Shown here: positions 6,352 through 51,552 of the stretch, piece after piece
Numbering within the stretch: the first letter of the stretch is position 1
Layout: each line of letters starts with the position of its first letter
Assembly (NCBI GenBank): GCA_002897735.1
Contig: BDTW01000016.1
Location: 1-52,120, forward strand
Length of the DNA stretch: 52,120 nucleotides
From: a bacterium BMS3Bbin13
GTDB lineage: Bacteria; Pseudomonadota; Gammaproteobacteria; 21-64-14
Direction of reading: 5' to 3'
Position numbers and translations under genes: made by a program
The notes under the pieces: generated by a model
What the model saw: only the letters and a program-made list of their open reading frames with translations
The model's database searches: none
Told to the model about the DNA's origin: nothing

Positions 6352-7476
6352 ATGGATGTCGAGACCGGCGTGCGTGAGCGCTACTCACTAGCGGCCCGGG
6401 AGAAGGAAGCGGCGCTGTGCTGCCCCGCGCCCGGCTACGATCCCGGACAACTGGCGCTGCTGCCGGAAGAGATCGTGGAAAAAGATTACGGTTGCGGGGA
6501 TCCCTCACGCCACGTGCGCGAGGGCGACGTGGTCGTGGATCTGGGCAGCGGCGCGGGCAAGATCTGCTACCTCGCCGCACAGTCCGTGGGCGAGGCCGGA
6601 CGCGTGATCGGCGTCGATATGAACGACGACATGCTCACGCTCGCCCGCAAATACCAGCCGGAGATGGCGCGCAAACTCGGCGGCGACCGCCTGCGTTTCG
6701 TAAAGGCGCAGATCCAGGACCTGGCCCTGGACCTGGAGGCGGTGGATTCCTATCTCGCCGGGCACCCCGTACGCAGCGCCGCCGATCACGCGCGGCTGCT
6801 CGCCTGGCAGGAGACCCGGCGGCACACGGCGCCGGCGATCGCCGACGCCTCCGTGGACCTGGTGGTATCCAACTGTGTCCTCAACCTGGTGCGGGACCGG
6901 GACAAGGAGCGACTGGTGCGCGAAATCCACCGCGTGCTTCGCCCCGGCGGGCGGGTGGCGATCTCCGACATCGTCAGCGACGAGCCGATCCCGGAAGAAC
7001 TCAAACGGGACCCCGAATTGTGGAGCGGCTGTATCTCCGGGGCGTTCACGGAAGAGGACTTCCTGCGTGCATTCGCCGAGGCGGGCTTCCTGGCCGTTCG
7101 CTACGACCAGTGGGGCGCGGAACCGTGGAAGGTGGTAGAAGGCATCGAGTTCCGTTCCGTGACCCTCACCGCGGTCAAGGCCGACGAGGCGCCGTGCCTG
7201 GATCGGGGACACGCGGTCATCTACCGCGGCCCCTACGCCTGCGTCACCGACGATGAGGGACACGTCTATCCCCGTGGGGTACGCATGGCGGTGTGCGAGC
7301 GTACCTGCCGGTTCCTGACCACCGGTCCGCTGCGCGCGGACTTCATCGGCATCGCGCCCGCGGTGCCGCACGAGCCCGTGCCCTGGTGCGCACCGGCGGG
7401 CACCAAGCGCCCGGCCTCGGAAACCAAGGGTGCCGCCCACCAGGGCACCGGCACCGGCGGCACCTGCTGCGGTTGA
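6352..7476 (+). CDS. arsM: Arsenite S-adenosylmethionine methyltransferase-like protein
   Basis: The 374-residue protein is a class I SAM-dependent methyltransferase. It has motif I VVVDLGSGAG (about 59-68), the acidic strand GVDMNDDML, and VVSNCVLNLV downstream. Paired cysteines near the start (Cys23-Cys24 in LCCPAPGYD), a Cys in SNCVLNL and a C-terminal GGTCCG cluster are consistent with trivalent-arsenic binding. It follows arsS by 46 bases with a good ribosome site (GGAGGAAACGGTAT before ATG). It should methylate arsenite stepwise to supply dimethylarsenic to ArsS. It is longer than minimal ArsM because of a C-terminal domain after about residue 270 (VIYRGPYACVTDDEGH), which is common in this operon type. 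Confidence 0.88.
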   Translation: MDVETGVRERYSLAAREKEAALCCPAPGYDPGQLALLPEEIVEKDYGCGDPSRHVREGDVVVDLGSGAGKICYLAAQSVGEAGRVIGVDMNDDMLTLARKYQPEMARKLGGDRLRFVKAQIQDLALDLEAVDSYLAGHPVRSAADHARLLAWQETRRHTAPAIADASVDLVVSNCVLNLVRDRDKERLVREIHRVLRPGGRVAISDIVSDEPIPEELKRDPELWSGCISGAFTEEDFLRAFAEAGFLAVRYDQWGAEPWKVVEGIEFRSVTLTAVKADEAPCLDRGHAVIYRGPYACVTDDEGHVYPRGVRMAVCERTCRFLTTGPLRADFIGIAPAVPHEPVPWCAPAGTKRPASETKGAAHQGTGTGGTCCG

Positions 7477-7479
7477 TCC

Positions 7480-8166
7480 ATGCCGCGGCTGTCCGTCATC
7501 GTCCCCACGCTCAACGAGGCGCCACGCATCACGGGAGCACTCGACGCCCTGCAGGACCTGCGCGGCGCCGGCCATGAACTCATCGTCGTCGACGGCGGCA
7601 GTAGCGACGCCACCGCCGAGCGAGCGGCGCCGCTCGCCGACCGGGTGCTGTGCGGGCCGCGCGGGCGCGGGCCGCAGATGAACGCCGGGGCGCGCGTCGC
7701 ACGCGCGGCGGTGCTGCTGTTCCTGCATGCCGACACGCGGCTGCCGCCGGGCGCCGCAGACACGATCCTGCGGGGGCTGCAGCGTAGCGGATGCGACTGG
7801 GGCCGCTTCGACGTACGCCTGTCCGGGGAGCGCCCGGCGTTCCGCCTCATCGCCTCGCTGATGAACCTGCGCTCGCGGATCACCGGAATCGCCACCGGTG
7901 ATCAGGCGCTGTTCGTGCGCCGTGAATGGTTCCGGGCCGCCGGCGGCTATGCGGAACAACCGCTGATGGAGGACGTGGACCTCTCACGCCGACTCAAGCG
8001 CCGCGGACCCCCGCTGTGTCTGCACGAGCGGGTCGTGACCTCGAGCCGGCGGTGGGAGCGCGACGGCGTCGCGCGCACCGTCCTGCTGATGTGGCGGCTG
8101 CGCCTCGCCTACGCCCTGGGCGGCGACCCGCACCGCCTGGCGCGACGCTACCACCCCGGCCGTTGA
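7480..8166 (+). CDS. Arsenosugar-type glycosyltransferase, TIGR04283 family
   Basis: This 228-residue GT-A fold family 2 glycosyltransferase begins PRLSVIVPTLNEAPRI and contains IVVDGGSSD, the acidic FLHADTRLP and MEDVDLSRRL. These match the TIGR04283 family that travels with arsS and arsM. It starts four bases after the arsM stop, so it is co-translated. It is cytoplasmic or peripheral, with no membrane segments. The likely role is transfer of a sugar to, or modification of, the arsenic-containing ribose product; the substrate is not proven for any bacterium I know of. Confidence 0.88.
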   Translation: MPRLSVIVPTLNEAPRITGALDALQDLRGAGHELIVVDGGSSDATAERAAPLADRVLCGPRGRGPQMNAGARVARAAVLLFLHADTRLPPGAADTILRGLQRSGCDWGRFDVRLSGERPAFRLIASLMNLRSRITGIATGDQALFVRREWFRAAGGYAEQPLMEDVDLSRRLKRRGPPLCLHERVVTSSRRWERDGVARTVLLMWRLRLAYALGGDPHRLARRYHPGR

Positions 8167-8891
8167 CCGCCGCCCCCGTGCCGGACCCCCGCCGCGACGC
8201 GTGCGACTGTGCCGTTCAGGTGTTCGCCAAGGCGCCGGTCGCCGGCACCGTCAAGACCCGGCTGATCCCGGTCCTCGGCGCGCGCGGCGCGGCGCGGTTG
8301 CAGGCGCGCCTGACGCGGTTCACCTTGGAGCGGGTCGTCGCCGCGACATCGGGCCCTATCGAGCTGTGGTGCGCACCGGATGCGCATCACCCGTTCTTCG
8401 CGCGCTGTCGGCGCGAGTACCCGCTGACGCTGCGCACCCAACCGAACGGCGATCTCGGGGTGCGCATGCACCACGCGCTGGCGTGCGCCCTGCGCGCGGG
8501 GGCCGGGCGAACCCTGCTGGTCGGGACCGACTGCCCCGCGCGCGGGCCGGGTGACCTGTACGCGGCGTGCGCCGCCCTGCGCGCGGGCGCGCAGGTGGTC
8601 CTCGGTCCGGTATACGACGGCGGTTACACACTGATCGGAGTCCGGCAGGACGTACCGGAGGTGTTCGCGGGGATCCCATGGGGAACGGAGGAGGTGCTCG
8701 CATGCACGCGCCGCCGCCTTGCCGAAAGGGGCTTGCGCGCCGTCGAACTCCCGCTCACCTGGGACGTGGACCGAGCGGCGGATCTGGAACGCCTCGCCAC
8801 GCAACCGCAACTGTGCGGCCTGCTGGAGGGACTCGGCGGCCGCGCGCCGCACCCCGAGGCACCACGCGGGCAAACACGCCGCAAGCCGTGA
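8163..8891 (+). CDS. Arsenosugar-type glycosyltransferase/nucleotidyltransferase-like protein, TIGR04282 family
   Basis: This protein of about 242 residues shows VQVFAKAPVAGTVKTRLIP near its start, then LLVGTDCPARGPGDL and VLGPVYDGGYTLIGV. These are the hallmarks of the DUF2064/TIGR04282 family, a GT-A-like fold related to CofC nucleotidyltransferases. The start chosen is the TTG at 8163, which overlaps the previous stop as TTGA; a GTG at 8178 is equally possible. It closes the four-gene arsenosugar operon. A basic tail (HAGKHAA-type residues in another frame should be ignored) ends at the stop at 8891. The sugar donor is unknown. Confidence 0.85.
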   Translation: MTAAPVPDPRRDACDCAVQVFAKAPVAGTVKTRLIPVLGARGAARLQARLTRFTLERVVAATSGPIELWCAPDAHHPFFARCRREYPLTLRTQPNGDLGVRMHHALACALRAGAGRTLLVGTDCPARGPGDLYAACAALRAGAQVVLGPVYDGGYTLIGVRQDVPEVFAGIPWGTEEVLACTRRRLAERGLRAVELPLTWDVDRAADLERLATQPQLCGLLEGLGGRAPHPEAPRGQTRRKP

Positions 8892-36987: not shown

Positions 36988-39729
36988 TCATCGAGTACAC
37001 ACCCGCGATGCCTTGGTGATGGAAACCGCCACCACCTTGAATTCCGGCGTCATACTGTCCTGGTCCAGCACACCACTGGTCAGATGGTTGATCGCCGCTT
37101 CGGGAAAATGGAAGGTGGTGAACAAGACCCCGGGCCGGACCTCGTCACTGAGACGCACCTGCAGGTGCGTCCGGCCCTTCCGCGAACGCAGCAATACCTC
37201 ATCGCCGTCGACAATATCGCAGCGCCCTGCGTCCGACGGATTGATCAACAATTCATCGTGATCGACGAGGTCCAGCAACGGTGTGCGACGGGTCATGGAA
37301 CCGCAATTGTAATGCTGCAACCGGCGACCGGTGGTGAGAATAAAGGGATATTCATCCACGTCGTCGCCCTGCAGTTCCGGGGTTTCGATGAAGTCGGTGA
37401 ACACGAAACGTCCCTTGCCGATCTTGAACCGCTCCGTGTGCAGGATTTTGGTATCACCGCCGTCCTCGTTCACCGGCCATTGTTTACCATCGGGCCCGAG
37501 GCCGTCCCGGCTCACCCCGGCAAAAAACGGAACCACCCGAGAGATCTCTTCGAGCAGAACCGCCGGATCATACCCCGCCTGCGGATAACCCATGCGGTTC
37601 ATGATATCCACCATGATCCGCCCGTCCGCCCGGGTGCCTTCCAGCGGCGCAATCACCCGATTGACGCGTTGCACACGACGTTCGCCATTGGTGAAGGTGC
37701 CGCTCTTTTCCAGATGGGAGGCGGCGGGCAGCACCACCTCGGCAAGGCCGGCCGTCTCGGTCATAAACAGCTCCTGCACCACCAGGAAATCCAGCCTCAT
37801 GAGCGATTGTCTGACGTGGGTCGTATCGGGATCGGTCTGCAGAATGTCCTCACCCATGATCCACAGCGCCTTGAGCCTTCCTTCACCCGCGGCGCGAAGC
37901 ATCTCGGGCGTCGTCAGCCCCTTTTCTGCGGGAACGGGCCGCCCGTAATGGCGCTCATAATGAGCGCGCACCTCGGGGTTGGAGACATCCAGATAACCGG
38001 CGCCCAGTCCCGGCTGCACACCCATGTCGGCCGCGCCCTGAACGTTGTTCTGCCCGCGCAATGGATTGACGCCGACACCCGGACGCCCGATGTTGCCGGT
38101 CATCATGGCCAGCGCGGAGAGAAGCATCACCCCGCGGCTGCCCTGATAATGCTCCGTGAGCCCGAGACCGTGAAAGGACATGGCGTTTTTCGCCCGTCCG
38201 TAAATCAGTGCCGCCTCGTGCACCGTTTCGCGGCCGACACCGGTGATCCTTTCCAGCCGCCCAAGATCGACATTCAATGCGGCGCTCCGGAAATCCTCGA
38301 AGCCCTCGGTACGCCGACGGACAAAATCCTCATCGACCAGACCTTCGCTGATGATGTAGTAGGACAGCATCCCCAACAACGCCACATTGGTGCCCGGACG
38401 CAACTGCAAATGGACCGTCGCATGGCGGGCCAGCTCGATACGCCGCGGATCGATGACGATCAGCGGGATGCCCTTCATGGCACGCTGCCGTAATTTTACG
38501 CCGGTGACGGGATGGGCCTCGGTGCAATTCGCGCCCACCACCAGCAGGCAATCGGCCGCCCCGATCTCAGCGATGGAATTGGTGGCCGCACCGGTTCCGA
38601 AGGTCTTGCGCATGCCGAAAGCCGTCGGCGCATGGCACACCCGGGCGCAGCCGTCGATGTTGTTGCTGCCGATGACCGCGCGCATGAATTTCTGCATCAG
38701 GTAGTTTTCCTCGTTGGTGCAACGCGAGGAGGAAATGCCGGCGATGGCCCGAGGCCCATGCTGTGTTTTTATGCGATCGAGCCGTCGGGCGATGTGGTCC
38801 AGGGCCTCGTCCCAACCGACGGGCCGAAGCTCTCCGTCCTTGCGAAGCAACGGCGTGCGCAGGCGATCGGGATGACGATAATAGGCGAAGGCATAGCGCC
38901 CCTTGAGACAGGCGTGCCCCCGGTTCACTTCCGCATCACTCACCGCATCGACGGCGCGTATTTCCCCTCCCTTCAACAGCACCTCCAGGTTGCAACCCAC
39001 GCCGCAATAGGTGCAGACCGTGCGCACCCGCCGGTCCGCGATCAGGGTCTTGGCCCGGTAACGGTCGGTCAATGCATTGGTGGGACAGGTCTGTACGCAA
39101 CGGCCGCAGGCCACGCACCCGGATTCCAGGAAGGGCCGATCCAGGGAGGCAATGACCCGGGAACGATAACCCCGTCCGTGCATGGCCAGCACCATCTCAC
39201 CCTGAATCTCGTCACAGGCGCGGATACAACGATAGCAATGAATGCACTGGGCCGGGTCGAAATGGATGTAAGGGTGCCCGGCATCGACCCGGATCGCCGC
39301 GATGTTTCGAGGAAACCGGCTTGTCGAAGACGGGGGTTGCGCAGTATTCATGCCTGCCTGCCGCAGGAGTCTCTGAAAATGCGTAGGCCTTTCACCGGGA
39401 GCCGGCGACAATGCCTGCTCGGGATAATCGCTCAACAACAATTCCAGGATCGTCCGGCGGAGTCTTTCGATACGCCGTGAATTCGGGTAGATGTACCGGC
39501 CGGCCTCCACCCGGGTATGACATGCCGCCCGGACACGCCGTCCCCCCTCTTGCGTCGGCGCCACATCGACACTGCACAGTCGGCAACTCCCGAAAGGTGC
39601 CAGGGCCTCGTCGTGGCACAACACCGGTATCGCGTCCGGCCCCAGATGGCGGCTGACAAAATGATAAATCGTCTCATCGTGCTCGAAAGGGTGGGCGACA
39701 CCGTCGATGTAGGCGATATTTTCACTCAT
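36988..39729 (-). CDS. fdsA: Formate dehydrogenase catalytic subunit (NAD-type)
   Basis: The 913-residue molybdenum or tungsten enzyme oxidises formate to CO2. The N-terminus has a [2Fe-2S] domain (Cys38, 49, 52, 70). Two [4Fe-4S] ferredoxin motifs follow (Cys162, 165, 168, 172 and Cys205, 208, 211, 215). The cofactor domain opens with its own cluster (Cys239, 242, 246, 274). The active-site residue is Cys365 in CARVCHAPT; it is Cys, not selenocysteine. The His/Cys cluster motif that FdsA and NuoG normally carry near residue 100 (HPxDCxxC) is replaced by SDYPEQALSPAP, so that cluster is missing. It overlaps fdsB by eight bases. fdhD is not in the window. Confidence 0.93.
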   Translation of the reverse strand: MSENIAYIDGVAHPFEHDETIYHFVSRHLGPDAIPVLCHDEALAPFGSCRLCSVDVAPTQEGGRRVRAACHTRVEAGRYIYPNSRRIERLRRTILELLLSDYPEQALSPAPGERPTHFQRLLRQAGMNTAQPPSSTSRFPRNIAAIRVDAGHPYIHFDPAQCIHCYRCIRACDEIQGEMVLAMHGRGYRSRVIASLDRPFLESGCVACGRCVQTCPTNALTDRYRAKTLIADRRVRTVCTYCGVGCNLEVLLKGGEIRAVDAVSDAEVNRGHACLKGRYAFAYYRHPDRLRTPLLRKDGELRPVGWDEALDHIARRLDRIKTQHGPRAIAGISSSRCTNEENYLMQKFMRAVIGSNNIDGCARVCHAPTAFGMRKTFGTGAATNSIAEIGAADCLLVVGANCTEAHPVTGVKLRQRAMKGIPLIVIDPRRIELARHATVHLQLRPGTNVALLGMLSYYIISEGLVDEDFVRRRTEGFEDFRSAALNVDLGRLERITGVGRETVHEAALIYGRAKNAMSFHGLGLTEHYQGSRGVMLLSALAMMTGNIGRPGVGVNPLRGQNNVQGAADMGVQPGLGAGYLDVSNPEVRAHYERHYGRPVPAEKGLTTPEMLRAAGEGRLKALWIMGEDILQTDPDTTHVRQSLMRLDFLVVQELFMTETAGLAEVVLPAASHLEKSGTFTNGERRVQRVNRVIAPLEGTRADGRIMVDIMNRMGYPQAGYDPAVLLEEISRVVPFFAGVSRDGLGPDGKQWPVNEDGGDTKILHTERFKIGKGRFVFTDFIETPELQGDDVDEYPFILTTGRRLQHYNCGSMTRRTPLLDLVDHDELLINPSDAGRCDIVDGDEVLLRSRKGRTHLQVRLSDEVRPGVLFTTFHFPEAAINHLTSGVLDQDSMTPEFKVVAVSITKASRVCTR

Positions 39730-41347
39730 GGCCCGCCCCCGACCTGAAATAGTCCGCCAACTCGGGCCGGAAGCGGCTCAGGATGTTGCGCACCGGCAGC
39801 GGAAGGCCGCCGCCCAGGCCGCACAGGGAACCAAGCTCCAGCGTTTCCAGCAGGTCATCGAAGGCAGCGCCGTCGACGGGACTGTCCGGCGTCGCCTCCA
39901 TCAACATGCGTCGCCCCTTCTCGGTTCCCAACCGGCAGGGCAGACACTTGCCACAGGATTCATCGGCCGTGAAGGTAAAGAGATGGCGCAGAAACCCGAT
40001 CATGGGAAAGTCCTGCGGAATGCCGACGATGCCGGCATGGCCCAGCAGGAAACCCTCGCCTGCAAACGACTCGAAATCCAGCGACAATGCGGCGATTTTC
40101 TCCACCGGCACCACGCCGCCCAGCGGGCCTCCCACCTGCACGGCCTTCATCGCCGTCCGGAACCCGCCGCCATAACCATAGATCACCCGCTCCAGCGCGG
40201 TGCCCATCGCCACTTCGTGCACGCCGGGATTGTTGAACCCCCGATCCAGCGACACCAGTTTGGTGCCGGTACTCGCCTCCGTACCCAGCGCGGCAAAGGC
40301 CGCGCCGCCGTGGTCCAGTATCCAGGGCAGCGCGGCGAAGGTCTCCACGTTACTCACCAGGGTGGGCCGCCCGAACAGCCCCGCCTGCGCGGGATAGGGG
40401 GGCCGGGTGCGCACCTCGGGCCGCAGGCCCTCGATGGAATTGAGCAGCGCGGTCTCTTCGCCGCAGATGTAGGAGCCCGCACCCCGCACCAGGCGGAATT
40501 GAAATCCACCTTGCGCGAAGACGGGCGTCCGTTCGAACGCCTCGATGGCCTCCGCCACGCGTTTTTGCGCCAGGGGGTATTCCGCCCGGACATAGAGAAA
40601 ACCGGTGTCCGAACCCATCGTCAGTCCGGCCGCCAGCATGCCCGCCAGCACCCGCTGGGGACGCTCTTCCAGCAACCAGCGATCCGAAAAGGCGCCGGGG
40701 TCGCCTTCATCGCCATTGCAGACCACGTACTTCCGTCCCACCGGCGCACTGCGGCAGGCGTCGAGCTTGCCGGCAAAAGGGAAACCGGCGCCACCGCGGC
40801 CCCGCAGACCGGATATTGACAATTCGTCCGGAAATGAAACCGGGAGTTGGGATGCCGTACCGAATATCCGTCGATAAAGCACCTCGGCCTCGTCCCCGCC
40901 GCCGCCGAACACCGAGTGCGCCGTATGGCAGTGGAAGGTGGGCCCTGCTCCCTCCTCGGAATCCGGGTCGACCCCGGTATCGAAACAGCGATCCCCTATC
41001 CGATAGGCACCGCCGCGATAACAGCGGCCCAGGCAGGCGGCCTCACCGATCTGTTCATTCGGAAACTGCGCCGTCAACCGGGCGCGAACCGTTTCTTGCC
41101 CGCCCGCCAGCAGGCAGGCCGTTCCATTGCAGACATAGGCTTGTTTGTCGCGGTTGTCTTCCGAGAGAAAATCGTAAAAGGATGCGGCGCCCAGTAACGC
41201 CGCCGGTGAAATCAGGCTCTCTTCAGCCAGCGCGCAGAGTTGGTCATGGGAAGGTGCGCCTGTCGCCCGCCCCACCTCCAGCAGCGCCTCAAACAGCGTC
41301 CGGTTCCGGCAACAACGTGCACTCAGGGCGCGAATATTCTGCGACAT
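39722..41347 (-). CDS. fdsB: Formate dehydrogenase NAD-binding subunit, fused FdsG-FdsB
   Basis: The 541-residue protein fuses two parts that are often separate. Residues 1-135 are a NuoE-like [2Fe-2S] domain (Cys73, 78, 105, 109). The rest is NuoF-like, with the FMN/NAD site (SGLRGRGGAGFPFAGK), CNGDEGDPG, EETALLNSIEG, and the [4Fe-4S] motif ESCGKCLPCRLG. It passes electrons from FdsA to NAD+. GAGGATGAGG precedes the ATG. It is downstream of a small cytochrome c and directly upstream of fdsA. Confidence 0.93.
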   Translation of the reverse strand: MSQNIRALSARCCRNRTLFEALLEVGRATGAPSHDQLCALAEESLISPAALLGAASFYDFLSEDNRDKQAYVCNGTACLLAGGQETVRARLTAQFPNEQIGEAACLGRCYRGGAYRIGDRCFDTGVDPDSEEGAGPTFHCHTAHSVFGGGGDEAEVLYRRIFGTASQLPVSFPDELSISGLRGRGGAGFPFAGKLDACRSAPVGRKYVVCNGDEGDPGAFSDRWLLEERPQRVLAGMLAAGLTMGSDTGFLYVRAEYPLAQKRVAEAIEAFERTPVFAQGGFQFRLVRGAGSYICGEETALLNSIEGLRPEVRTRPPYPAQAGLFGRPTLVSNVETFAALPWILDHGGAAFAALGTEASTGTKLVSLDRGFNNPGVHEVAMGTALERVIYGYGGGFRTAMKAVQVGGPLGGVVPVEKIAALSLDFESFAGEGFLLGHAGIVGIPQDFPMIGFLRHLFTFTADESCGKCLPCRLGTEKGRRMLMEATPDSPVDGAAFDDLLETLELGSLCGLGGGLPLPVRNILSRFRPELADYFRSGAGHE

Positions 41348-42087: not shown

Positions 42088-43461
42088 TTACGCCGGCGGC
42101 CCGAATTCCTCCAATTTGCGATACAGCGTAGACAGACCGATGCCAAGCGCCTGGGCGGCCGCACGACGATCACCCCCGGCATCTTCGATTGCCATCTGGA
42201 TCAGGTTGTATTCGTGCGTACGAACCAATTCACGCAGACTCGTCCCGGTGGGCAGTGCGGAAGATCCGTTCCCGGCGGATCCCAAGCGGGTGATATGCGA
42301 CGGCAGATCGGCGACGGCGATCCGTTCACCGTCGGCAAGGATCAGTGCGCGAGCGATTATATTTTCGATTTCCCGCACGTTTCCCCGCCAGTCATGAGCG
42401 ATGAGCAAATTCTCCGCTTCCGGTTCGATTGAAATCTTCCGCCCCTGCGAAAAGCGCCCTCCGCCGCGTTCCAGGAAGAACCGTACCAATTTCGCGATAT
42501 CACCGCGACGCTCGCGCAGCGGTGGTATATGGATGTGGAAAACATCGATTCGGAAATACAGATCCTCCCTGAATTCACCCCGCGCGACCATCTCGCCCAG
42601 ATTCCGATTGGTCGCCGCAACGATACGAATGTCTACGCGCTTGACCTGACTGCTGCCGACGGGCCGGAATTCCTTTTCCTCGATCACATGCAACAGCTTG
42701 ACCTGAAGATGAAGCGGCAGTTCGCCGATCTCATCCAGAAAGATGGTGCCCTTGTCGGCTTCCAGGAACAAGCCCTTCTTTACCCTGTCCGCGCTGGTAA
42801 ATGCCCCCTTGGTATGCCCGAAAAACTCGCTCTCGATCAAGTTCTCCGGTATCGATCCGCAATTGACGGGGATAAACGGTGCACCGGCACGCGGACTTTG
42901 TTTATGAATGCTGCGTGCGATCACACCTTTTCCGGTTCCGCTCTCACCGGTTATGAGAACGGTGCTGTCGGTCGTCGCAACCTTGGAAACGATGCGTTCG
43001 ATCTCCTGCATTGCGGGCGAGGTCATTTCGCAAAGATTTTCGTTGTCGCCCAAAACAATTCTACGAAGCAGGCGGTTCTCGTTACGCAGCCCCCTGATAT
43101 TCTCGATCTGCTTGATCTGGTGCAGCACCTCTTCGATACGCACGGGCTTGAGCATATAATCGAATGCACCCGCCTTCATGGCCTCCACTGCGGTATCGAC
43201 CGACGCATAGGCCGTCATGAGCAGGAAAGTGGTATCGATACCCGATTCGGCGGCCTTGCGCATGACGTCGATGCCGCTCAAGCCGGGCATCTTCATGTCA
43301 CAAATAGCGATATCCACATCTCCTTTACCCAACCTGTCCAAGGCCTCCTCTCCGCTGCCAACGTCTTCCACAACGTAGTTTTCCTTATGCAGATTTGCGG
43401 CCAACACCTGGCGGATCGCCAATTCATCGTCGACAACGAGGATCTGTACCGCAGACATCAT
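42088..43461 (-). CDS. NtrC-family sigma-54-dependent response regulator
   Basis: The 457-residue protein has a receiver domain with phosphoacceptor Asp55 (AICDMKMPG), an AAA+ domain with Walker A GESGTGKG (172-179) and Walker B FLDEIGELP, and a C-terminal Fis-type helix-turn-helix (AAQALGIGLSTLYRKLEEFG). The sigma-54 contact loop reads GAFTSA (219-224) rather than GAFTGA, a known but less common form. The start overlaps the kinase stop (ATGA). It probably activates RpoN-dependent genes, perhaps the cytochrome and formate dehydrogenase genes downstream, but no convincing -24/-12 site was found there. Confidence 0.93.
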   Translation of the reverse strand: MMSAVQILVVDDELAIRQVLAANLHKENYVVEDVGSGEEALDRLGKGDVDIAICDMKMPGLSGIDVMRKAAESGIDTTFLLMTAYASVDTAVEAMKAGAFDYMLKPVRIEEVLHQIKQIENIRGLRNENRLLRRIVLGDNENLCEMTSPAMQEIERIVSKVATTDSTVLITGESGTGKGVIARSIHKQSPRAGAPFIPVNCGSIPENLIESEFFGHTKGAFTSADRVKKGLFLEADKGTIFLDEIGELPLHLQVKLLHVIEEKEFRPVGSSQVKRVDIRIVAATNRNLGEMVARGEFREDLYFRIDVFHIHIPPLRERRGDIAKLVRFFLERGGGRFSQGRKISIEPEAENLLIAHDWRGNVREIENIIARALILADGERIAVADLPSHITRLGSAGNGSSALPTGTSLRELVRTHEYNLIQMAIEDAGGDRRAAAQALGIGLSTLYRKLEEFGPPA

Positions 43462-44975
43462 CCGGTTCCTTGATTGTCGTGCCTGCCATCCAGCGGCAGG
43501 AAAACCTTTGCGATCGTTCCTACGCCAAGCGTGGACTCTATCTCGAGCCAACCGTGATGCGCCTTCACAATCGATTGACAGAGGGAGAGACCCAGCCCTG
43601 TCCCTTTCTCGGTTGTCTTGGTCGTGTAGAAGGTATCGATGGCATGGGTCAATGTTTTCTTGTCCATGCCGCAGCCGTTATCCCGGACCGCCATACAGAT
43701 CCCCTGTTGCGTCACGGTTGTCGAAACGTCGATCGTCGGTGCGCGCCCCTCCAGCCCTTCCAATGCGTCCACGCCGTTGACCAGCAGGTTCATGGTGACC
43801 TGGGTAAGTTGATCGCCGATAGCGCTGAGCGCGGGCAGGTCATTGTCGAGATCCAACACTAATTCGACGCCTTTCCAGCGGCTGTCGTAGCGCATCAGCC
43901 GACAGGTGCTGCGAATCATGGCATTGAGATCAAGCAACTGATATTCGTCCGATTCGGCCCTGGACAACCCGGAGATCTCCTGGGTGATCCCCCTGAGCCG
44001 CTCGGCGTGCCGCAGGACCATTTCCAAATTGCACATGTCGGTCTCGTCGATATAGGGGCACCCCCCGGTGAGTTTTGTCCGCTTGATCTCCTCGACCAGC
44101 GCGCAAATCGCCGCAATGGGATTTCCGACCTCGTGTGCAATACCCGCCGCCAACGTGCCGATGGCGGCCATCTTTTCCTGGTGAAATTGCTTGCGACGCT
44201 CGATCTCCAACGCCTCTTCATGTTTCTCGAGTTCACTCGCCATGTGGTTGATCGATTGGATCAACTGCCCCAGCTCGTCGTTGCGTGCAACCGGGATAGG
44301 AACTCCGCGTCGCCCTTCCAGAATCTCGTCGGTGCGCCGCCTCAGCGCCTGTACATCGCCCGTGAGGCGCCTGAAGAAGAGGACGTTAATGGTCCCGAAC
44401 AACGCCAATCCGAGCAGGCCCAGCAGCAGAGCGGTCGTTGCCACCGTATCGCTGCGCACCCGGAAGTCCTCCACCAAGGCGTTCCGGCGTTTACTGCTTC
44501 TGGCGAGACGGGCCTCCGTGTCCGAACTGAGACGGCCCAGTTTGCGCTGCAGCGCTCCCAGATTTTGTTGGGTCGGCTCCGCGTAGGCGGTCGCCATGGC
44601 GGCGCGCAACCCCGCCAGTTCGGGTCGAACGGAAATGCGCCCGGCGAGCATCTCTTCAAAGATATCCTGGAGCAGCCTGATGTGGTCGCGCGCATGGGCC
44701 ACCCCGCGCCCCGGGAAGACGCGGTTGAGTGCGGCCACTTGCGCCTCGAGGGCGTATCGAATGCTCAGATCCACCTCTCTGAGCCTCGCTTCCGTATCGT
44801 ATGCGCTCTGCACCTTATTGAACTGTTCGAACAGCACCTGCTTTTCGTAGAGAATGAAGGCGGAGAGAAAGATTGCGTAGGCGATCAGTGCGGCATAGGC
44901 GATATAGCTTTTCTGGCGCAACGACTTGTAAGGACGGCGATTCCGCGAAGACAGACCGGTCGCGTTGTCGCTCAT
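43458..44975 (-). CDS. Membrane histidine kinase
   Basis: The 505-residue kinase has a membrane segment at about 25-42, a periplasmic helical sensor, a second segment at about 175-195, and a HAMP-like linker. The HisKA motif is GIAHEVGNPIAAICALV, with an intact His. The ATPase domain has N-box LLVNGVDAL, D-box RDNGCGMD and G2 GTGLGLSL, so it is active by motif. It is translationally coupled to the NtrC-type regulator, its cognate partner. The extracytoplasmic signal is unknown. The next gene upstream encodes a related but degenerate kinase. Confidence 0.93.
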   Translation of the reverse strand: MSDNATGLSSRNRRPYKSLRQKSYIAYAALIAYAIFLSAFILYEKQVLFEQFNKVQSAYDTEARLREVDLSIRYALEAQVAALNRVFPGRGVAHARDHIRLLQDIFEEMLAGRISVRPELAGLRAAMATAYAEPTQQNLGALQRKLGRLSSDTEARLARSSKRRNALVEDFRVRSDTVATTALLLGLLGLALFGTINVLFFRRLTGDVQALRRRTDEILEGRRGVPIPVARNDELGQLIQSINHMASELEKHEEALEIERRKQFHQEKMAAIGTLAAGIAHEVGNPIAAICALVEEIKRTKLTGGCPYIDETDMCNLEMVLRHAERLRGITQEISGLSRAESDEYQLLDLNAMIRSTCRLMRYDSRWKGVELVLDLDNDLPALSAIGDQLTQVTMNLLVNGVDALEGLEGRAPTIDVSTTVTQQGICMAVRDNGCGMDKKTLTHAIDTFYTTKTTEKGTGLGLSLCQSIVKAHHGWLEIESTLGVGTIAKVFLPLDGRHDNQGTG

Positions 44976-45231
44976 TTGATGTCGACCTCTTTGATTACAC
45001 CGATATTTTTCTATTTTATCACCCTTATGAACCACATCGCCAACCGTGCCCGCCGGGTGCCGGCGCACACCCCCCGGACACCCGGGCTGTTTCGCCCGGT
45101 TTTCGGAACGCCGCCCCCGTTTCGGCCGAACGGGGCGCCCGGCGGACCCGGGAAGCCGTGCCGCGACACGCGGGGAACCCGCCCTTGCCCTTCGGGGGCA
45201 ACGGCCGACGGCGTCCAAATCCGATACCCGG
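44976..45231. other. Gap between the two kinase genes
   Basis: This 256-base, GC-rich stretch has several short inverted repeats (CGTTTCGGCCGAACG at about 45117-45131). It has no gene and no obvious promoter. It may hold the start of a separate transcript for the active kinase. Confidence 0.4.
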
Positions 45232-46731
45232 CTAACCGACATTTCTTCCGCGCTTTGGGAAATCCACACGAATGCCGCAAGTCTCACCCGGCGTGCAAAG
45301 TACCGTGAACATTCCCCCATGTGATTCGATGAAAGATCTGACCATCGAGAACTCGATCTTCATTCGCTTTGTCGAGCCCTTACCCGGGCAGAACGGCAAC
45401 ATGCATGCGCCGGAACGACACAGGTCCGCATCTGCGAACAAGCATTGGATCCGGACCGTGACGACGCGCTCATCATGGCCGCTGGAGACCCATACCCCTC
45501 CACCGGTGATCAGCGCGGCATCGACCGCCTTTTCGACCAGGTACAGGAAACCCAGCGCGCATGCGGGACGATCCAGGACGAGCGCCGGCACACTTGCATC
45601 CAGCTCTGTGTCGATCCTCACATCGTTCATGCGTTTGTCCAATAACACCAACATCACAACCGCCTGAATAACTTCGTTGATCCCGGAGAGTTCTCGCTGC
45701 GACGCGGAGAACAGGTTGAAATTCCCGGTCTGCCGAAGCACCAATCCGATGCGCGCCGTCTGTTCGTGCAAAATGGCGAAATACTTTCCCACCTGATCCC
45801 GGCTTACCCGCTCCCGCTCGCTTTTCGGCGGGTTCTCCTGCCAACATCGGCGCAACAAATCGATTGCGCCATCGATCGCGGTCAGAGGATTCCCCACCTC
45901 ATCCGCTATTCCCAACGCCATGTTGACGAGCGCGCGCAGGCGCTTCCTCTCCGCGGCCAGGTAACTGTCGACGGCCTGTTCCATCTGGCGGGTGCTCAGT
46001 GCGTCCGCCATCTCTTCCAGCGCCGCTGAAATATAGGCGGCTTTGCTTCCCGATCCGCAGACCGACAGGGGCGTCGGGTTTTTCCCCGACCCGATCAGCC
46101 GGATATTGCGCTCGACGGTTCTCAAACACGTACGCCACCCATGCTCCAAACGCCACAGCATAAGGAAGAGAACCGCGCCGAGAGCGAGCGCACCCAACCA
46201 CACGCTATAGCGCAGACGCCCCGCGATAACCTGTTGCCGGTGGAACAATGCACGCGTTTCGGCGTCAATGCCCGCCAACAACCCGACAAACCGTTTCTCG
46301 GCCGCCGCGAGATCCCCGAGGAAAGGTGAACGACCGGACGAAGCGACATATGCCATTTGCACAATCTGCCGCTCTTCGGTATTGAGCACTCCATTATGCA
46401 GCCTCAACCCTTCCTCCAAGCGGTGGTGCAATAACCGGCGGGACTGATATGCCGCCCCGTCGCCACCCGGACTTGCAGCCATGAGGCTGGCTTCTGCAAG
46501 ACCCAGCAGGTCGCGCCGGGCCTGCAAGGCACTGAGACCAGTGGTGATCCGTCCCACGTCGCGCACGAAGTAGAGCAACACCCCCGCATTGAAAACCAGC
46601 ATGCACAGGATAACCACTGCGTCGATCAGGAACCGGCGCTCCAGAGCCGGCCGGACCGGCGCGGCTATCCCTCGACGAGACTCCTCCGGCATCATGGCCG
46701 CCCTTGACTCATACCCTGCTTCCTGTACCAT
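45232..46731 (-). CDS. Pseudo-histidine kinase (degenerate membrane sensor)
   Basis: The 499-residue protein has the same plan as the kinase next to it: a membrane segment at 34-56, a periplasmic helical region, a second segment at 174-194, and a HisKA-like helix. The phosphoacceptor His is Asp277 (GIADEVGNP). The N-box Asn is Lys (LVEKAVDAA), the D-box is lost (VRIQCLFAD), and the G2 box is RMKIEFS in place of GTGLGLS. It can neither bind ATP normally nor autophosphorylate. The frame is intact over 500 codons, so it looks maintained as a sensor or a regulator of the active kinase. The start at 46731 lacks a clear ribosome site; 46695 is an alternative. Confidence 0.85.
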   Translation of the reverse strand: MVQEAGYESRAAMMPEESRRGIAAPVRPALERRFLIDAVVILCMLVFNAGVLLYFVRDVGRITTGLSALQARRDLLGLAEASLMAASPGGDGAAYQSRRLLHHRLEEGLRLHNGVLNTEERQIVQMAYVASSGRSPFLGDLAAAEKRFVGLLAGIDAETRALFHRQQVIAGRLRYSVWLGALALGAVLFLMLWRLEHGWRTCLRTVERNIRLIGSGKNPTPLSVCGSGSKAAYISAALEEMADALSTRQMEQAVDSYLAAERKRLRALVNMALGIADEVGNPLTAIDGAIDLLRRCWQENPPKSERERVSRDQVGKYFAILHEQTARIGLVLRQTGNFNLFSASQRELSGINEVIQAVVMLVLLDKRMNDVRIDTELDASVPALVLDRPACALGFLYLVEKAVDAALITGGGVWVSSGHDERVVTVRIQCLFADADLCRSGACMLPFCPGKGSTKRMKIEFSMVRSFIESHGGMFTVLCTPGETCGIRVDFPKRGRNVG

Positions 46732-46942: not shown

Positions 46943-47635
46943 TTACCGGGAATCTTTCGAGCCTTTTTTTGCGCCGGACGCAGTCATCGGTCCGGATATC
47001 GAGCACTGTTTCCATATTCGGATCAACAATCTCGCCTTCTCCGCATAGCGATCATCGGGATCGGTGTATCTCAGATAATCACGCATGGCGCGTATGGCCC
47101 CCTTGGTGTCATGCAATTGATTCAGGGCGAGCGCCAAGCCATAATGGGCATTGGCTTGATCTGCACGTAACATGATGGCGGAATTGAAGAAAACGCGGGC
47201 ATCCTCAGGTCGTCCCAGACTCAGCAACGTAAAGCCCATGTTTACGTGCGCCTCAGGCAACTTCGGTGCGAGCTTCAGCACCTTGCGCCAGGCGATCAAT
47301 GCTTCCTTGTTTTTCCCTCCATGCAACAAACGTACCGCCTGATCGAACGCCCGCGCCAACCGTTGGGCAACGGCGTCACGCGCCTTGTCGGAGACCTCGC
47401 CGCGTGTGGCGGAATCTTGTACTGCGGGGACAGGGGCGGCATCGGGCCGGGCCGATGCCGTACTCGCTTTGGGCGGGGGTCCGCCACCCTCCGTGCCGGG
47501 TCTGGGGCCGGGAATCAACTTGATCGCCACACCGATCCCGAGGATCAGCGCAAGTGCCAGGACAAGGCCCGCGAGCCTCCTGTCTTTACTCGCACCGGTG
47601 GATTTTCGTGCTGGACTATTCACGCGGCTCGACAA
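46943..47635 (-). CDS. Membrane-anchored TPR protein
   Basis: The 230-residue protein has one N-terminal membrane helix (LAGLVLALALILGIGVAIKL), a Pro/Ala-rich linker and about three TPRs (AVRLLHGGKNKEALIAWRK, AHVNMGFTLLSLGRPEDARV, AHYGLALALNQLHDTKGA). It resembles CcmH/NrfG-like periplasmic TPR subunits that hold apocytochrome c for haem attachment. That fits its position behind resB, resC and the TlpA-like gene. The start may be the TTG at 47635 or the GTG at 47623. Confidence 0.8.
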   Translation of the reverse strand: MSSRVNSPARKSTGASKDRRLAGLVLALALILGIGVAIKLIPGPRPGTEGGGPPPKASTASARPDAAPVPAVQDSATRGEVSDKARDAVAQRLARAFDQAVRLLHGGKNKEALIAWRKVLKLAPKLPEAHVNMGFTLLSLGRPEDARVFFNSAIMLRADQANAHYGLALALNQLHDTKGAIRAMRDYLRYTDPDDRYAEKARLLIRIWKQCSISGPMTASGAKKGSKDSR

Positions 47636-47646
47636 GGATTGGGGAC

Positions 47647-48240
47647 TTATCCGGATTGCATCGACGGGTTCAAGACACGCTGCGCCTGCCCGGGGCCGAG
47701 GTGACCATCACGATACAACCGAGCCAACAGGGCACGCACCGCCGGCCGGTCCCAGGCGCGAGCGCCTATGATCCTGGCCTGTAGCGTCCCGTCCGCGGCC
47801 ACCAGCAGGGTTTCGGGAAAAACCTTCACGCCCAACTGCGTTGCGACGCGCCGGTCGGGATCCAGGTAAATCGGGAAACGGATATGGTAACGGCGTAGAA
47901 ACTCGTCCACCAAATAACGGTCCCGATCCACGGACAGCCCGACCACCGCGAAGTGATCGGGGTCGAGCTGCGCGCTCAGACGCTCCAAGCTTGGCATTTC
48001 CTCACGGCACGGCCGACACCAGACGGCCCAGACGTTGAATACGATGACCTTTCCGCGGAATCTATCCAGATCCACCGTGGCACCGTCCAGGGACCGGACC
48101 TGCAACGCCGGAAAGGGGGCCCCGATCCTGACCGCCGCCGGCGGGGGGCGATCGCAACCGCCCAGCACCGTCAGGAAGATCAGTGTTACCCCCGCCAGTC
48201 GGCGGACACCGCGCCACCGCTGTTCATGAGCGCGGCGCAT
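47647..48240 (-). CDS. TlpA/ResA-like thiol-disulfide lipoprotein
   Basis: The 197-residue protein has a lipobox (TVLGGC, Cys29) and a thioredoxin domain with the redox motif WCRPC (Cys75, Cys78). It is an AhpC/TSA-TlpA-type fold, seen in VIVFNVWAVWC, VGLSVDRDRYLVDEF and VKVFPETLLVAADG. It likely keeps the CxxCH cysteines of apocytochromes reduced in the periplasm, taking electrons from CcdA. Its start overlaps the end of the preceding gene by 17 bases, showing tight coupling. Confidence 0.9.
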   Translation of the reverse strand: MRRAHEQRWRGVRRLAGVTLIFLTVLGGCDRPPPAAVRIGAPFPALQVRSLDGATVDLDRFRGKVIVFNVWAVWCRPCREEMPSLERLSAQLDPDHFAVVGLSVDRDRYLVDEFLRRYHIRFPIYLDPDRRVATQLGVKVFPETLLVAADGTLQARIIGARAWDRPAVRALLARLYRDGHLGPGQAQRVLNPSMQSG

Positions 48241-49624
48241 GTCCTGTCCGCGGCACGGCGCGGTGCCGGGCGAGTGACGGGAACAACGCCGGGAGGACCA
48301 GCGCCAAAAAATACCAAGTTGCCACCAAAGCCACTACCGCTCCCGCGGCCATCAACAGCATGCCCGCAAATTCCTGAACATTGGTAAACACCTGCAGCGA
48401 ACCCGCCTCCTTGCGCTCTACCCCATACAAACCCGACCATGCAAGACCCGCGACCAGCGTCAGCATCCCGCCGCCATACAGCCGGGCCTGCAGTCGGATC
48501 GCCCGTTCCGGGACGGTGGCGAAACCCAGGCGACCGAGCAGATGATACGTCAATCCCATAAATGCCAGGGTCACGGCCCCGTCCGTTCCGTGGTAATGGG
48601 CGGGCACCATGACGTCGTTGGTGCGAATCAGTGCACCCAACACCAAGCCCACGCAGAACAGCAGGATGGAGAAACGCAGCAGGGTCGCACCGGCCGGGCG
48701 CGGCCCGGCCCCACGCTCGGTGCGGTACAAGGCGTACAGCACAAATATCATGAAGATGACGGCCACCGGCCAGATCCCCCACCGCATCAGTTGCGTGAAG
48801 GCGAACCGATAGTGGTCCGAATTCACGTCGGCCAGTGCGGGCACCAGCACGACCAGAAATACAGGCGCTACCTCGAGCCCGAATAGAGAGATCAGAACGG
48901 AGCGGCGCACGCGCACCCGTGCCCCGATATCGCCGACCAGTACCAGCCAAGTGACCAGCATGAGCAGCGTGTTCGCGAACTGGAACAGGTGTCCACCGCC
49001 CCAGAACAGGCGTCCGAAGTACTCGCGTCCCATTTTCACGTCCGGCAGGCCGTGGTAGTCGCGGATCAGGGTAAACATCGCCATTGCAATGGCGATGGCG
49101 GCACAATAGGCGCCGAAACGCAACACACCGCCACGGTGCGCCGGTGTCGTCAGGCCGGGACCGAGCACCAGGGTACGCAACACCATGAGTGCACAGCCCG
49201 CGGCGAGCAATCCCAGCCCGGTGAGAAACACCGGCCCGTCCAGCACGGGGATGTAGTTGCTCATGAGCGGGTGGCCGACACCCAGCAACAACGCCGCCAC
49301 CATGCCCAGCGCCCCCACCACGGCAAAACCCAGTGCGGTCCAACCGAGGCGCGGCAGGCGGGCATCGCCCAGCAGGCTCCACAGCACCCCTGCCAGAGAC
49401 AAGAACCAGACCAGCACGGCGAGATCCACATGCAGCACCAAGGTCGCGGGAAACAGCTCCCGGCGATGAAACAGATCCCGCAGGTAGGGCGTGCGCAACA
49501 TCACCAGCAACACCGCGAACAGACTGGAGATCCCCAGCGCGCAAAGGCCGAGCGACAGCCAGCCGATGGCGAGGCGGCGCGGCAGACCATCGACCACGGG
49601 GAGACTGGTGTCCGGGCTCGCCAT
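48224..49624 (-). CDS. Haem-copper oxidase subunit I-like membrane protein
   Basis: The protein of about 466 residues has roughly 12 membrane segments and motifs of the cbb3/nitric-oxide-reductase branch of subunit I. Numbering is from an upstream GTG at 49639. A histidine at 70 (LVLHVDLAVLVWF) would be a low-spin haem ligand, His217 (WGGGHLFQF) a CuB ligand, and His348/His350 (PAHYHGTDG) the haem ligands. The second CuB pair (His-His) appears only as Asp-His (NSDHYRF), so the binuclear centre may be altered. No CcoO, CcoP or NorC partner is adjacent. The ATG at 49624 lies four bases after the resC stop. Confidence 0.75.
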   Translation of the reverse strand: MASPDTSLPVVDGLPRRLAIGWLSLGLCALGISSLFAVLLVMLRTPYLRDLFHRRELFPATLVLHVDLAVLVWFLSLAGVLWSLLGDARLPRLGWTALGFAVVGALGMVAALLLGVGHPLMSNYIPVLDGPVFLTGLGLLAAGCALMVLRTLVLGPGLTTPAHRGGVLRFGAYCAAIAIAMAMFTLIRDYHGLPDVKMGREYFGRLFWGGGHLFQFANTLLMLVTWLVLVGDIGARVRVRRSVLISLFGLEVAPVFLVVLVPALADVNSDHYRFAFTQLMRWGIWPVAVIFMIFVLYALYRTERGAGPRPAGATLLRFSILLFCVGLVLGALIRTNDVMVPAHYHGTDGAVTLAFMGLTYHLLGRLGFATVPERAIRLQARLYGGGMLTLVAGLAWSGLYGVERKEAGSLQVFTNVQEFAGMLLMAAGAVVALVATWYFLALVLPALFPSLARHRAVPRTGHAPRS

Positions 49625-49628
49625 GGCG

Positions 49629-50441
49629 TCAGATCGCACCCTGATGTGGAACCTTGGAGATGAAGGGCACGCCGAAGAAGGTCAGGAAGGCCAGCACGAA
49701 TACCGTCAGGATCAGGACCGCGCCGCGTCGCGGTGCGGGTTTCAGAGTGGCCCGCAGATGCAGGGCGAAGGCCAACACCACCCACGTGATGAAGGACCAA
49801 GTCTCAAGCGGATCCCAGGACCAGTAGCGTCCCCAGGCATTCTGCGCCCAGATGGCGCCCGCAATCAACATGAGAGTCTCGAAGATAAAACCCAAGGCCA
49901 TGAACCGGTAGGCCAAGTCGTCGAGGCGGCGGTCGTCCGGAAGCCGGCTCAGCTTCTGCACACCGACGCCGGCCCGGCGCAGCAGGATCACCCCGGCCAT
50001 GCCCACGGCCACCAACACCGTGCCGAGGAACACCTTGCCGAACAGGATATGGATCGCCAGCCAGATCGTATTGTAGGTGGCTGGAAGATGCCCGGGCCCG
50101 CGGTTCAAGAGCAGCATCCAGCCCATCATGATAAACACCAGCGGCACCACCACGGCGGCAATCGGGCGGATCGGCCGGAAGCGCCAATACGCCAGCGAGA
50201 ATATGAACAACAAACTCCAGATATTGCTGGACAGGATCTCGAACATGGTCAGGTAGGGACCGTGGCCGAGACGCTCCCAGCGCAGGCCGATGGAGAGGCC
50301 GTGCAACGCCAGCCCGAGGACCAGCAACCCGAGCACCGTGCGCTCCGGGCGCTTGCCCATGACCACACCGACGATCGCCAGGGATCCGGCAGCGACATAA
50401 ACCCCGACGGCGAGCCACAACAACAGGGCCTCTCGTTCCAT
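49629..50441 (-). CDS. resC: Cytochrome c maturation haem handling protein ResC/CcsA
   Basis: The protein of about 270 residues has eight membrane segments and the tryptophan-rich WWD haem-handling motif (WAQNAWGRYWSWDPLETW). Conserved membrane histidines flank it (IHILFGKVF, FALHLRATL). It moves haem to the periplasmic face and, with ResB, attaches it to CxxCH motifs. The start is the ATG at 50441, just after the resB stop; a TTG at 50465 is possible. Confidence 0.92.
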   Translation of the reverse strand: MEREALLLWLAVGVYVAAGSLAIVGVVMGKRPERTVLGLLVLGLALHGLSIGLRWERLGHGPYLTMFEILSSNIWSLLFIFSLAYWRFRPIRPIAAVVVPLVFIMMGWMLLLNRGPGHLPATYNTIWLAIHILFGKVFLGTVLVAVGMAGVILLRRAGVGVQKLSRLPDDRRLDDLAYRFMALGFIFETLMLIAGAIWAQNAWGRYWSWDPLETWSFITWVVLAFALHLRATLKPAPRRGAVLILTVFVLAFLTFFGVPFISKVPHQGAI

Positions 50442-50451
50442 GGTCCGGAAT

Positions 50452-51552
50452 TTACCTGAATCCAAGCCGCGTGCAAATGCTAAAGATCAATCGACTCGGG
50501 AATTTCCGGGGGTGGGAAGACGGCGCCTTGATCCCGGTTTCATCCGATTTTGGTCTTATATCCTCCGAATCATCGCCATCCGCCAGCCAGGGGCGGGCGG
50601 CGAACCTGCCACCGTAATGCCAGGCCAAGCTCAGCATCGCCACCAGACAGGCGGCCAGCAACCAGGGCGTGGTCCAATCGTAGAACACTTGGTAACCCAT
50701 CCAGGTGCGCAGCCCATCATAGACCAGCCGGCCTCCCGGGAGGTCGATGTGATCGCCCGGCTGCAGCACGTAGCGCGCCCCCTTGAGGCGAACGATCAGA
50801 CGGTAGTGTGTGGGCACCCGGAACTGGGACGGCCGTTTCGGATTCAGGATACGCTCGTCGATCTGAAGCTCGGTCCAGAGGGCGACATGGGTCCCCGGCA
50901 GGGTCCACTGCAAAGCCTGCCGGTACTCGTTCTCCGGGTAACTGGGCAGATGGATGGAACCGCGCCGCGGCGGCCCCCCGCTTACGGGATACCAAGTGAA
51001 CGTGGGCGCGAAACCCTTGTTGTACGTCGTATAGAAGCGGTATCCCCCAAGCACCAGCGGATGTTGATCTCCGATCACCCCGACGTGCCGGCGTCCCCGG
51101 GAGTCGAGCCACTCCACCCGGCTTCGGGTTCGGTCGCGTTGAATGCCCGGATCGTAATTGATCGTGAAACCCTCTTGGGTGAACACCTCTCGGTCCAGGT
51201 GCCAGGGGTGCAGCGGCCCGCTCTCGACGCCGCTGATCCGGCCTCTGAAAGTCTCCCCGTCGGTTAGTTCGACATGGCCCCTGAGGTAGGTCAGGCGGCT
51301 CACCGCCACCAGCACGATCAGCGCGAGCAGGGCCAGATGGAAGACCAGCAGCGGGATGCGCCGTCGGAAAACCGGGTTGACGACGATCGCCGCCAGCAGA
51401 TTGAGAGCAAACAGCAACAGCGGAACGGCCAACGTCCAGGTCGGGGACAGCTTGCTGAAATGGGCCCCCAACACGCCGGCGCCGAACAGCACGAACAGCA
51501 CCAGCGTCAACCTGGGCGACGCCAGCTTCCGGAGCGGGGTGTCGATCGTCAT
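50452..51552 (-). CDS. resB: Cytochrome c maturation protein ResB/Ccs1
   Basis: The 366-residue protein has three N-terminal membrane segments, a large periplasmic domain (about 105-310) and a fourth membrane segment (WLLAACLVAMLSLAWHYGG). This is the ResB/Ccs1 layout. Family landmarks are the start LASPRLTLVLFVL and the end GGRLVYDGLRTWMGYQVFYD. It forms the haem-ligation complex with ResC. The gene lies directly upstream of resC, and together with CcdA (19526-20257) and the TlpA-like protein it completes a system II pathway. Confidence 0.92.
   Translation of the reverse strand: MTIDTPLRKLASPRLTLVLFVLFGAGVLGAHFSKLSPTWTLAVPLLLFALNLLAAIVVNPVFRRRIPLLVFHLALLALIVLVAVSRLTYLRGHVELTDGETFRGRISGVESGPLHPWHLDREVFTQEGFTINYDPGIQRDRTRSRVEWLDSRGRRHVGVIGDQHPLVLGGYRFYTTYNKGFAPTFTWYPVSGGPPRRGSIHLPSYPENEYRQALQWTLPGTHVALWTELQIDERILNPKRPSQFRVPTHYRLIVRLKGARYVLQPGDHIDLPGGRLVYDGLRTWMGYQVFYDWTTPWLLAACLVAMLSLAWHYGGRFAARPWLADGDDSEDIRPKSDETGIKAPSSHPRKFPSRLIFSICTRLGFR

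Follow-up and report, generated by a model that had tools for sequence, protein, structure and literature searches.

The window, a 52,120-nt stretch of a gammaproteobacterial genome (bacterium BMS3Bbin13, contig BDTW01000016.1), encodes a protein resembling a histidine kinase without catalytic residues, next to an intact kinase and an AtoC/NtrC-type response regulator. To our knowledge, few pseudo-histidine kinases have been described. Is this gene a decaying duplicate or a maintained part of the signaling system and, if maintained, what does its product act on?

A histidine kinase framework devoid of catalytic motifs

The gene is an uninterrupted frame of 499 codons (Table 1). In the initial annotation, its product was described as carrying two membrane segments, a periplasmic region, and a HisKA helix, with Asp277 (codon GAT) in place of the phospho-acceptor His, Lys at the N-box, and the D-box and G2 box lost. 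Hydropathy analysis, AlphaFold2 (AF2) modeling, and a sub-threshold Pfam match to HisKA (19.7 bits against a cut-off of 26.9) support the domain layout, and the sequence together with its alignment to a profile of intact kinases confirms the substitutions. In this alignment, the N-box Asn is replaced by Lys401, the D-box Asp by Cys, the two G1 glycines by Phe and Asp, and the three G2 glycines by Arg, Lys, and Glu; the DHp motif reads GIADEVGNPL vs GIAHEVGNPI in the adjoining kinase. A HATPase_c domain was not detected by Pfam. The region between the membrane segments is mostly helical, and the linker resembles a degenerate HAMP domain. Profile alignment to ThkA, ZraS, FixL, KinB, and NtrB places the DHp framework as homologous to that of kinases, and the HMM family match is far under the family cut-off (41 bits vs 646 for AtoS). 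The protein lacks the phospho-acceptor His, the N-box Asn, the DxGxG motif of the D-box, and the GxGxG motif of G2, all expected of an active HisKA kinase. Because the phospho-acceptor and the ATP-binding motifs are both missing, autophosphorylation should not occur, judging from the sequence.

AF2 modeling from an alignment that combined 55 kinases with the pseudokinases of the window and L082 (see below), L174 being left out, yielded a long DHp hairpin and a CA-type alpha/beta order (mean pLDDT 80.6), with most of the CA core at 87-97 and the lid at 55-74, the lowest values in the domain. With the two pseudokinases as the only input, the order of secondary structure elements was similar and the model was not confident (pLDDT 41), so the higher value was aided by the active-kinase rows. 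As this mixed alignment still gives a CA-like fold, the CA domain itself is probably retained although its ATP motifs are gone. Foldseek matched the model to DHp-CA structures of ZraS, LOV-FixL chimeras, GacS, CckA, DivL (4q20), and RetS, and to the RetS-GacS co-complex (7n0e).

Table 1. Features of the window and of the two orthologous loci
Feature	Coordinates	Strand	Description and evidence
Pseudo-histidine kinase	45232..46731	-	499 aa; helical periplasmic region between 2 membrane segments, followed by a degenerate HAMP-like linker, a DHp domain bearing Asp277, and a CA remnant that lacks the ATP motifs (ORF, Pfam, profile, hydropathy, AF2)
First membrane segment	46564-46644	-	Residues about 30-56 (hydropathy; AF2 helices)
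Second membrane segment	46147..46203	-	Residues about 177-195 (hydropathy; AF2 helices)
Asp277 codon (GAT)	45901-45903	-	Position of the phospho-acceptor His (sequence and alignments)
Cys296	45844..45846	-	In GAIDxLxxCWQ of DHp alpha1; invariant in 3/3
Cys-bearing CA remnant	45277..45444	-	Cys430, Cys438, Cys443, Cys448, Cys479, Cys485 (alignments)
Spacer, pseudokinase to kinase	44976..45231	-	256 bp, G+C-rich, imperfect inverted repeats
Intact partner kinase	43458..44975	-	2 TM, HAMP, HisKA (His281), HATPase_c with N-, D-, and G-boxes (Pfam, profile)
AtoC/NtrC-type response regulator	42088..43461	-	Receiver, sigma-54 AAA+, Fis-type HTH (Pfam)
Upstream conserved module	46943..51552	-	TPR protein, TlpA-like thioredoxin, COX1-like membrane protein, CcsB-type and ResB cytochrome c assembly proteins
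L082 ortholog	7408-8334	+	308 aa, between TPR gene and kinase; Asp for His, ATP motifs gone
L174 ortholog	2293-3054	-	About 253 aa; kinase and regulator genes follow immediately

Orthologs in two other genomes

The window genome (G000; 2.7 Mb in 62 contigs) has a single companion from its order in the genome set, G001 of the same genus, in which no ortholog of either kinase was found. A search for related loci with the pseudokinase alone as the query gave no match. A scan for the partner kinase across 84,980 species genomes yielded 69 loci, and a degenerate kinase was found in one of these, L082 (genome G369, the metagenome-assembled Chromatiales bacterium A3_maxbin2_scaf2bin.437). A search among relatives of this genome recovered a second ortholog, L174 (genome G381), on a short, 4.7-kb contig. 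No further match at the pseudokinase level was detected in the class sample or in the phylum sample, and the family as known comprises three members, from metagenome-derived genomes. Both ortholog genomes are gammaproteobacterial and share the gene order TlpA-[TPR]-pseudokinase-kinase-regulator. The linkage noted for the window, in which an intact pseudokinase adjoins an active kinase with its NtrC-type regulator, is found in three genomes.

The orthologs are 35-37% identical to the window pseudokinase and about 22% identical to real kinases; for L082, identity is 37% over 231 ungapped residues and that to its own neighboring kinase 22%. The partner kinases of the orthologs are 46-48% identical to the window kinase (48% for L082). 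In the phylogenetic tree, the three pseudokinases form one clade (support 1.0) on a long branch, and their partner kinases group with the kinases of L063, L076, L097, and L107, four loci in which no pseudokinase was seen. Beyond the three pseudokinase loci, about 65 copies of the cytochrome c assembly module described below lack such a protein. A single gain followed by losses, or transfer, would explain this patchy distribution. Between the N-termini of the pseudokinase and the partner kinase, no relationship was detectable (E = 0.085).

In Pfam, the HisKA match of all three pseudokinases stays sub-threshold, and none of them matches HATPase_c; the N-box position is occupied by Lys, Ala, and Ser, the position of the D-box Asp by Cys, Ala, and Cys, and G2 is lost. 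Asp277 and the motif losses are not due to chance, given that the orthologs occupy the same place and show the same losses. An artifact of sequencing or a frameshift was considered and rejected because identical substitutions are present in two independent genomes, and homologs with intact motifs at these positions, combined with frameshifts in the window gene, were not encountered. With a HisKA/DHp framework and catalytic residues consistently lost in genomes of three genera, two features expected of a functional pseudo-histidine kinase of the DivL or RocA kind, the product of this gene is, by its sequence, a conserved pseudo-histidine kinase; the third, control of a kinase or regulator without kinase activity of its own, is predicted.

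Purifying selection and the distribution of conserved residues

In pairwise comparisons of the DHp-CA region between the window gene and each ortholog, identity was 51-63% at codon positions 1 and 2 and 34% at position 3, which implies purifying selection on the protein. Together with the retention of the frame, Asp277, and a specific motif at the level of identity given above, this pattern agrees with the original view that the gene is not in the process of decay. The proposal that a periplasmic signal serves as the input fared differently: both orthologs lack the periplasmic domain and HAMP, with one membrane segment remaining in L082 and none in L174, and periplasmic sensing was rejected as the conserved function.

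We followed what became of alignment positions with a conservation of at least 90% across 77 kinases. Beginning at the N-box, there are 22 such positions, and 14 of them are lost in all three pseudokinases. The residues lost in each of the three include the His, the N-box Asn, the D-box Asp, Asn, and Gly, and the first and third G2 glycines; those kept in each are E278, N281, P282, R327, N352, P382, and A383. The retained E278 and N281 form an E-x-x-N motif that matches the E/DxxT/N sequence pattern of HisKA phosphatases. This is no proof of phosphatase activity because the H-box of ordinary kinases contains the same motif.

In DHp domains, the half of the helix that follows the phosphorylation site docks on the regulator and the half that precedes it mainly makes dimer contacts. 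In the pseudokinases, 17 of 22 residues in the docking half of alpha1 (residues 277-298) are invariant, including the pseudokinase-specific motif GAIDxLxxCWQ (present in all three), and in the dimer-forming half, 6 of 18. The respective values for the three partner kinases are 14/22 and 14/18. Most of the conserved kinase residues of the dimer half (at positions 263, 264, 265, 266, 269, 271, and 273 of the window protein) are replaced in all three pseudokinases. The DHp hairpin is also about nine residues longer than that of the partner kinase, which could alter docking.

A putative cysteine site in place of the ATP pocket

The CA remnant contains a set of shared cysteines. Cys443, Cys479, and Cys485 are present in all three pseudokinases, as is Cys438 within one residue, and Cys430 and Cys448 are each present in two. 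None of 20,000 trials that placed equal numbers of cysteines at random reproduced the three shared Cys columns of the remnant. Cys430 occupies the position of the D-box Asp; Cys479 takes the place of a Ser that 97% of the kinases share, and Cys485 is aligned to the Thr in the hairpin of the partner kinase. The adenine end of the pocket for ATP is lined, in GHKL proteins, by this Asp and by a Thr of the same hairpin. The former pocket could, therefore, now be a cysteine site that may sense the redox state or bind a metal, gating the interaction with the regulator. A metal or Fe-S sensor would need invariant Cys ligands that lie near one another; the cysteines are conserved in sequence, and the lid of the AF2 model has low pLDDT. 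There is a precedent for such regulation in SrrB of Staphylococcus aureus, where redox-active Cys in the CA domain can regulate the kinase (PMC8534201).

Genomic context

The pseudokinase gene lies upstream of the partner kinase gene, the end of which overlaps the beginning of the regulator gene by 4 nt. The spacer between the pseudokinase and kinase genes measures 256 bp in the window and is shorter in both relatives, at 66 and 92 bp; repeat and terminator scans of this spacer were unremarkable, with no clear terminator or promoter. Across the window, predicted sigma-54 promoter sites showed no excess (20 vs 20.1 expected). The sigma-54 contact loop of the window regulator reads GAFTSA rather than GAFTGA, as it also does in at least two other module copies (L099 and L106).

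The kinase-regulator pair belongs to a module conserved across Gamma- and Betaproteobacteria (as named in the records) that includes a multiheme cytochrome, ResB, CcsB, a COX1-like protein, a TPR protein, a TlpA-like protein, one or more kinases, an AtoC/NtrC-type regulator, and cytochrome c, with beta-propeller proteins in some copies. In the window, the regulator gene is followed by a cytochrome c gene and then, immediately downstream, by genes for a formate-dehydrogenase-like large subunit and a NuoF-like subunit, named from sequence (36988-41347, minus strand).

Module copies with two intact tandem kinases are found in G062, G155, and Motiliproteus (L102 and L108). Two intact kinases that precede one regulator, the second with a different N-terminus, are encoded at L061:8765-11833, L062:8792-11535, L102:8386-12062, and L108:8431-11990. 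It is the degenerate kinase, rather than the tandem arrangement, that is unusual in the module. In one further copy, from Ideonella sp. A 288, the sole kinase seen (L124:8317-9936, plus strand) carries GVLNDIGNP, that is, Asn-Asp for His-Glu; with its ATP motifs kept, this could possibly be an independent loss of the phospho-acceptor.

Candidate roles of the pseudokinase

Taken together, the sequence comparisons suggest that the pseudokinase acts on the adjacent kinase/NtrC-type regulator pair. We judge it close to an even prospect that its DHp domain docks on the neighboring regulator and dephosphorylates or reads it. The concentration of constraint in the docking half and the retention of E-x-x-N favor contact with the regulator: the DHp helix, through E278, N281, and the conserved surface from residue 277 on, would dock on the receiver domain and either dephosphorylate the regulator or hold its phosphorylated form. 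A reader function of this kind is known for the DHp domain of DivL, which binds DivK~P (PMC4211667). Docking might be gated by redox or metal through Cys479, Cys485, Cys443, and their neighbors, and the regulated genes would be those of the adjacent cytochrome c assembly and multiheme cytochrome module; docking, the phosphatase or reader activity, the cysteine function, and the target genes are all what we infer. Many HisKA phosphatases need their CA domain or nucleotide. The complete scheme, in which the His became fixed as Asp and the ATP pocket became a cysteine sensor (metal, Fe-S, or disulfide), such that the ex-catalytic domain is the input of a linked, regulator-docking pseudokinase tuning cytochrome c respiration, is more doubtful than its docking component.

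A possible, if tentative, alternative is that contacts between DHp domains join the pseudokinase to the active kinase, whose activity it would increase or decrease, with the periplasmic domain or, in the relatives, a cytoplasmic cysteine site as the input; a redox or metal role of the cysteines is compatible with this heterodimer as well as with regulator docking. The genes are linked in the same order in three genomes, the DHp framework is common to both proteins, and there are precedents in RetS-GacS, in ChrS/HrrS, which form native heterodimers (PMC9491836), and in RocA-CovS, where RocA associates with CovS in the membrane and depends on the kinase and phosphatase activities of CovS (PMC7028121). 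However, it is in the dimer half of alpha1 that conservation is poor, with most of its kinase residues replaced, the hairpin length differs from that of the presumptive partner, and L174 has no membrane anchor. Alternatively, the protein could be a stand-alone cysteine or metal sensor, or a scaffold, whose target lies outside the adjacent two-component pair. Conservation of the Cys set where the relatives have lost the sensor domain, in a module rich in redox proteins, is consistent with this option, but the DHp helix, a surface for two-component interactions, is under the strongest constraint, and each of the three pseudokinase genes directly adjoins a kinase gene, making this option unlikely. 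Least probable is a functionless, inactivated duplicate on its way out. Absence from the close module relatives L076/L175, L097, and L107 and from the same-genus genome G001, the variable N-terminus, and the high divergence would fit such decay; nevertheless, the frames are open in three genera even though the partner kinases have diverged to less than half identity, the codon pattern is that of purifying selection, and specific motifs, the Asp, and the cysteines are held in common. The gene thus looks like a repurposed signaling part rather than a dying one.

Comparison with known systems

The pseudokinase is encoded beside its probable partners and is conserved with a specific Cys set where ATP formerly bound. 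This is a compact system for studying how a kinase core is reused as a sensor or a regulator-docking protein, and the L174 protein, at about 250 aa, without a membrane part and predicted to be soluble, is small enough to purify. Pseudo-histidine kinases as such are already known. In a non-exhaustive search of the literature, we found no member that combines Asp in place of His, the disappearance of every ATP motif, and conserved cysteines in the CA domain; it is this combination that appears to be new, insofar as such a search can indicate.

The nearest profiles and structures to both the pseudokinase and its partner are those of AtoS/ZraS/NtrB-type HisKA kinases that work with AtoC/NtrC-type regulators, from which the pseudokinase differs in lacking the catalytic residues. 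SrrB likewise has redox-sensitive cysteines within the CA domain (PMC8534201) but is an active kinase, whereas in the window protein, the cysteines accompany the loss of the ATP motifs. The RetS-GacS pair shows that one histidine kinase can modulate another by direct contact; RetS, however, is a hybrid kinase, and a heterodimer of the window protein is a candidate only. RocA of group A Streptococcus resembles the window protein as a pseudokinase whose CA domain is degenerate and which modulates CovS, a genuine kinase that acts on a regulator (PMC7028121); it differs in having six putative TM segments and a dispensable His246 that is still present, belongs to another phylum, and is not known to have a conserved Cys set. 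A functional parallel to regulator docking is DivL of Caulobacter crescentus, a kinase-independent DHp-CA protein in which the phospho-acceptor is replaced by Tyr and which reads a phosphorylated regulator (PMC4211667). DivL keeps its N, G1, F, and G2 boxes and PAS domains (PMC4211667), whereas the window protein has lost the ATP motifs, has no PAS domain in Pfam, and falls outside the DivL ortholog group also by its context, which is cytochrome assembly and not the CtrA pathway; compared with DivL, it is distinguished by the Asp substitute, the conserved cysteines, and a gene located beside a probable partner pair.
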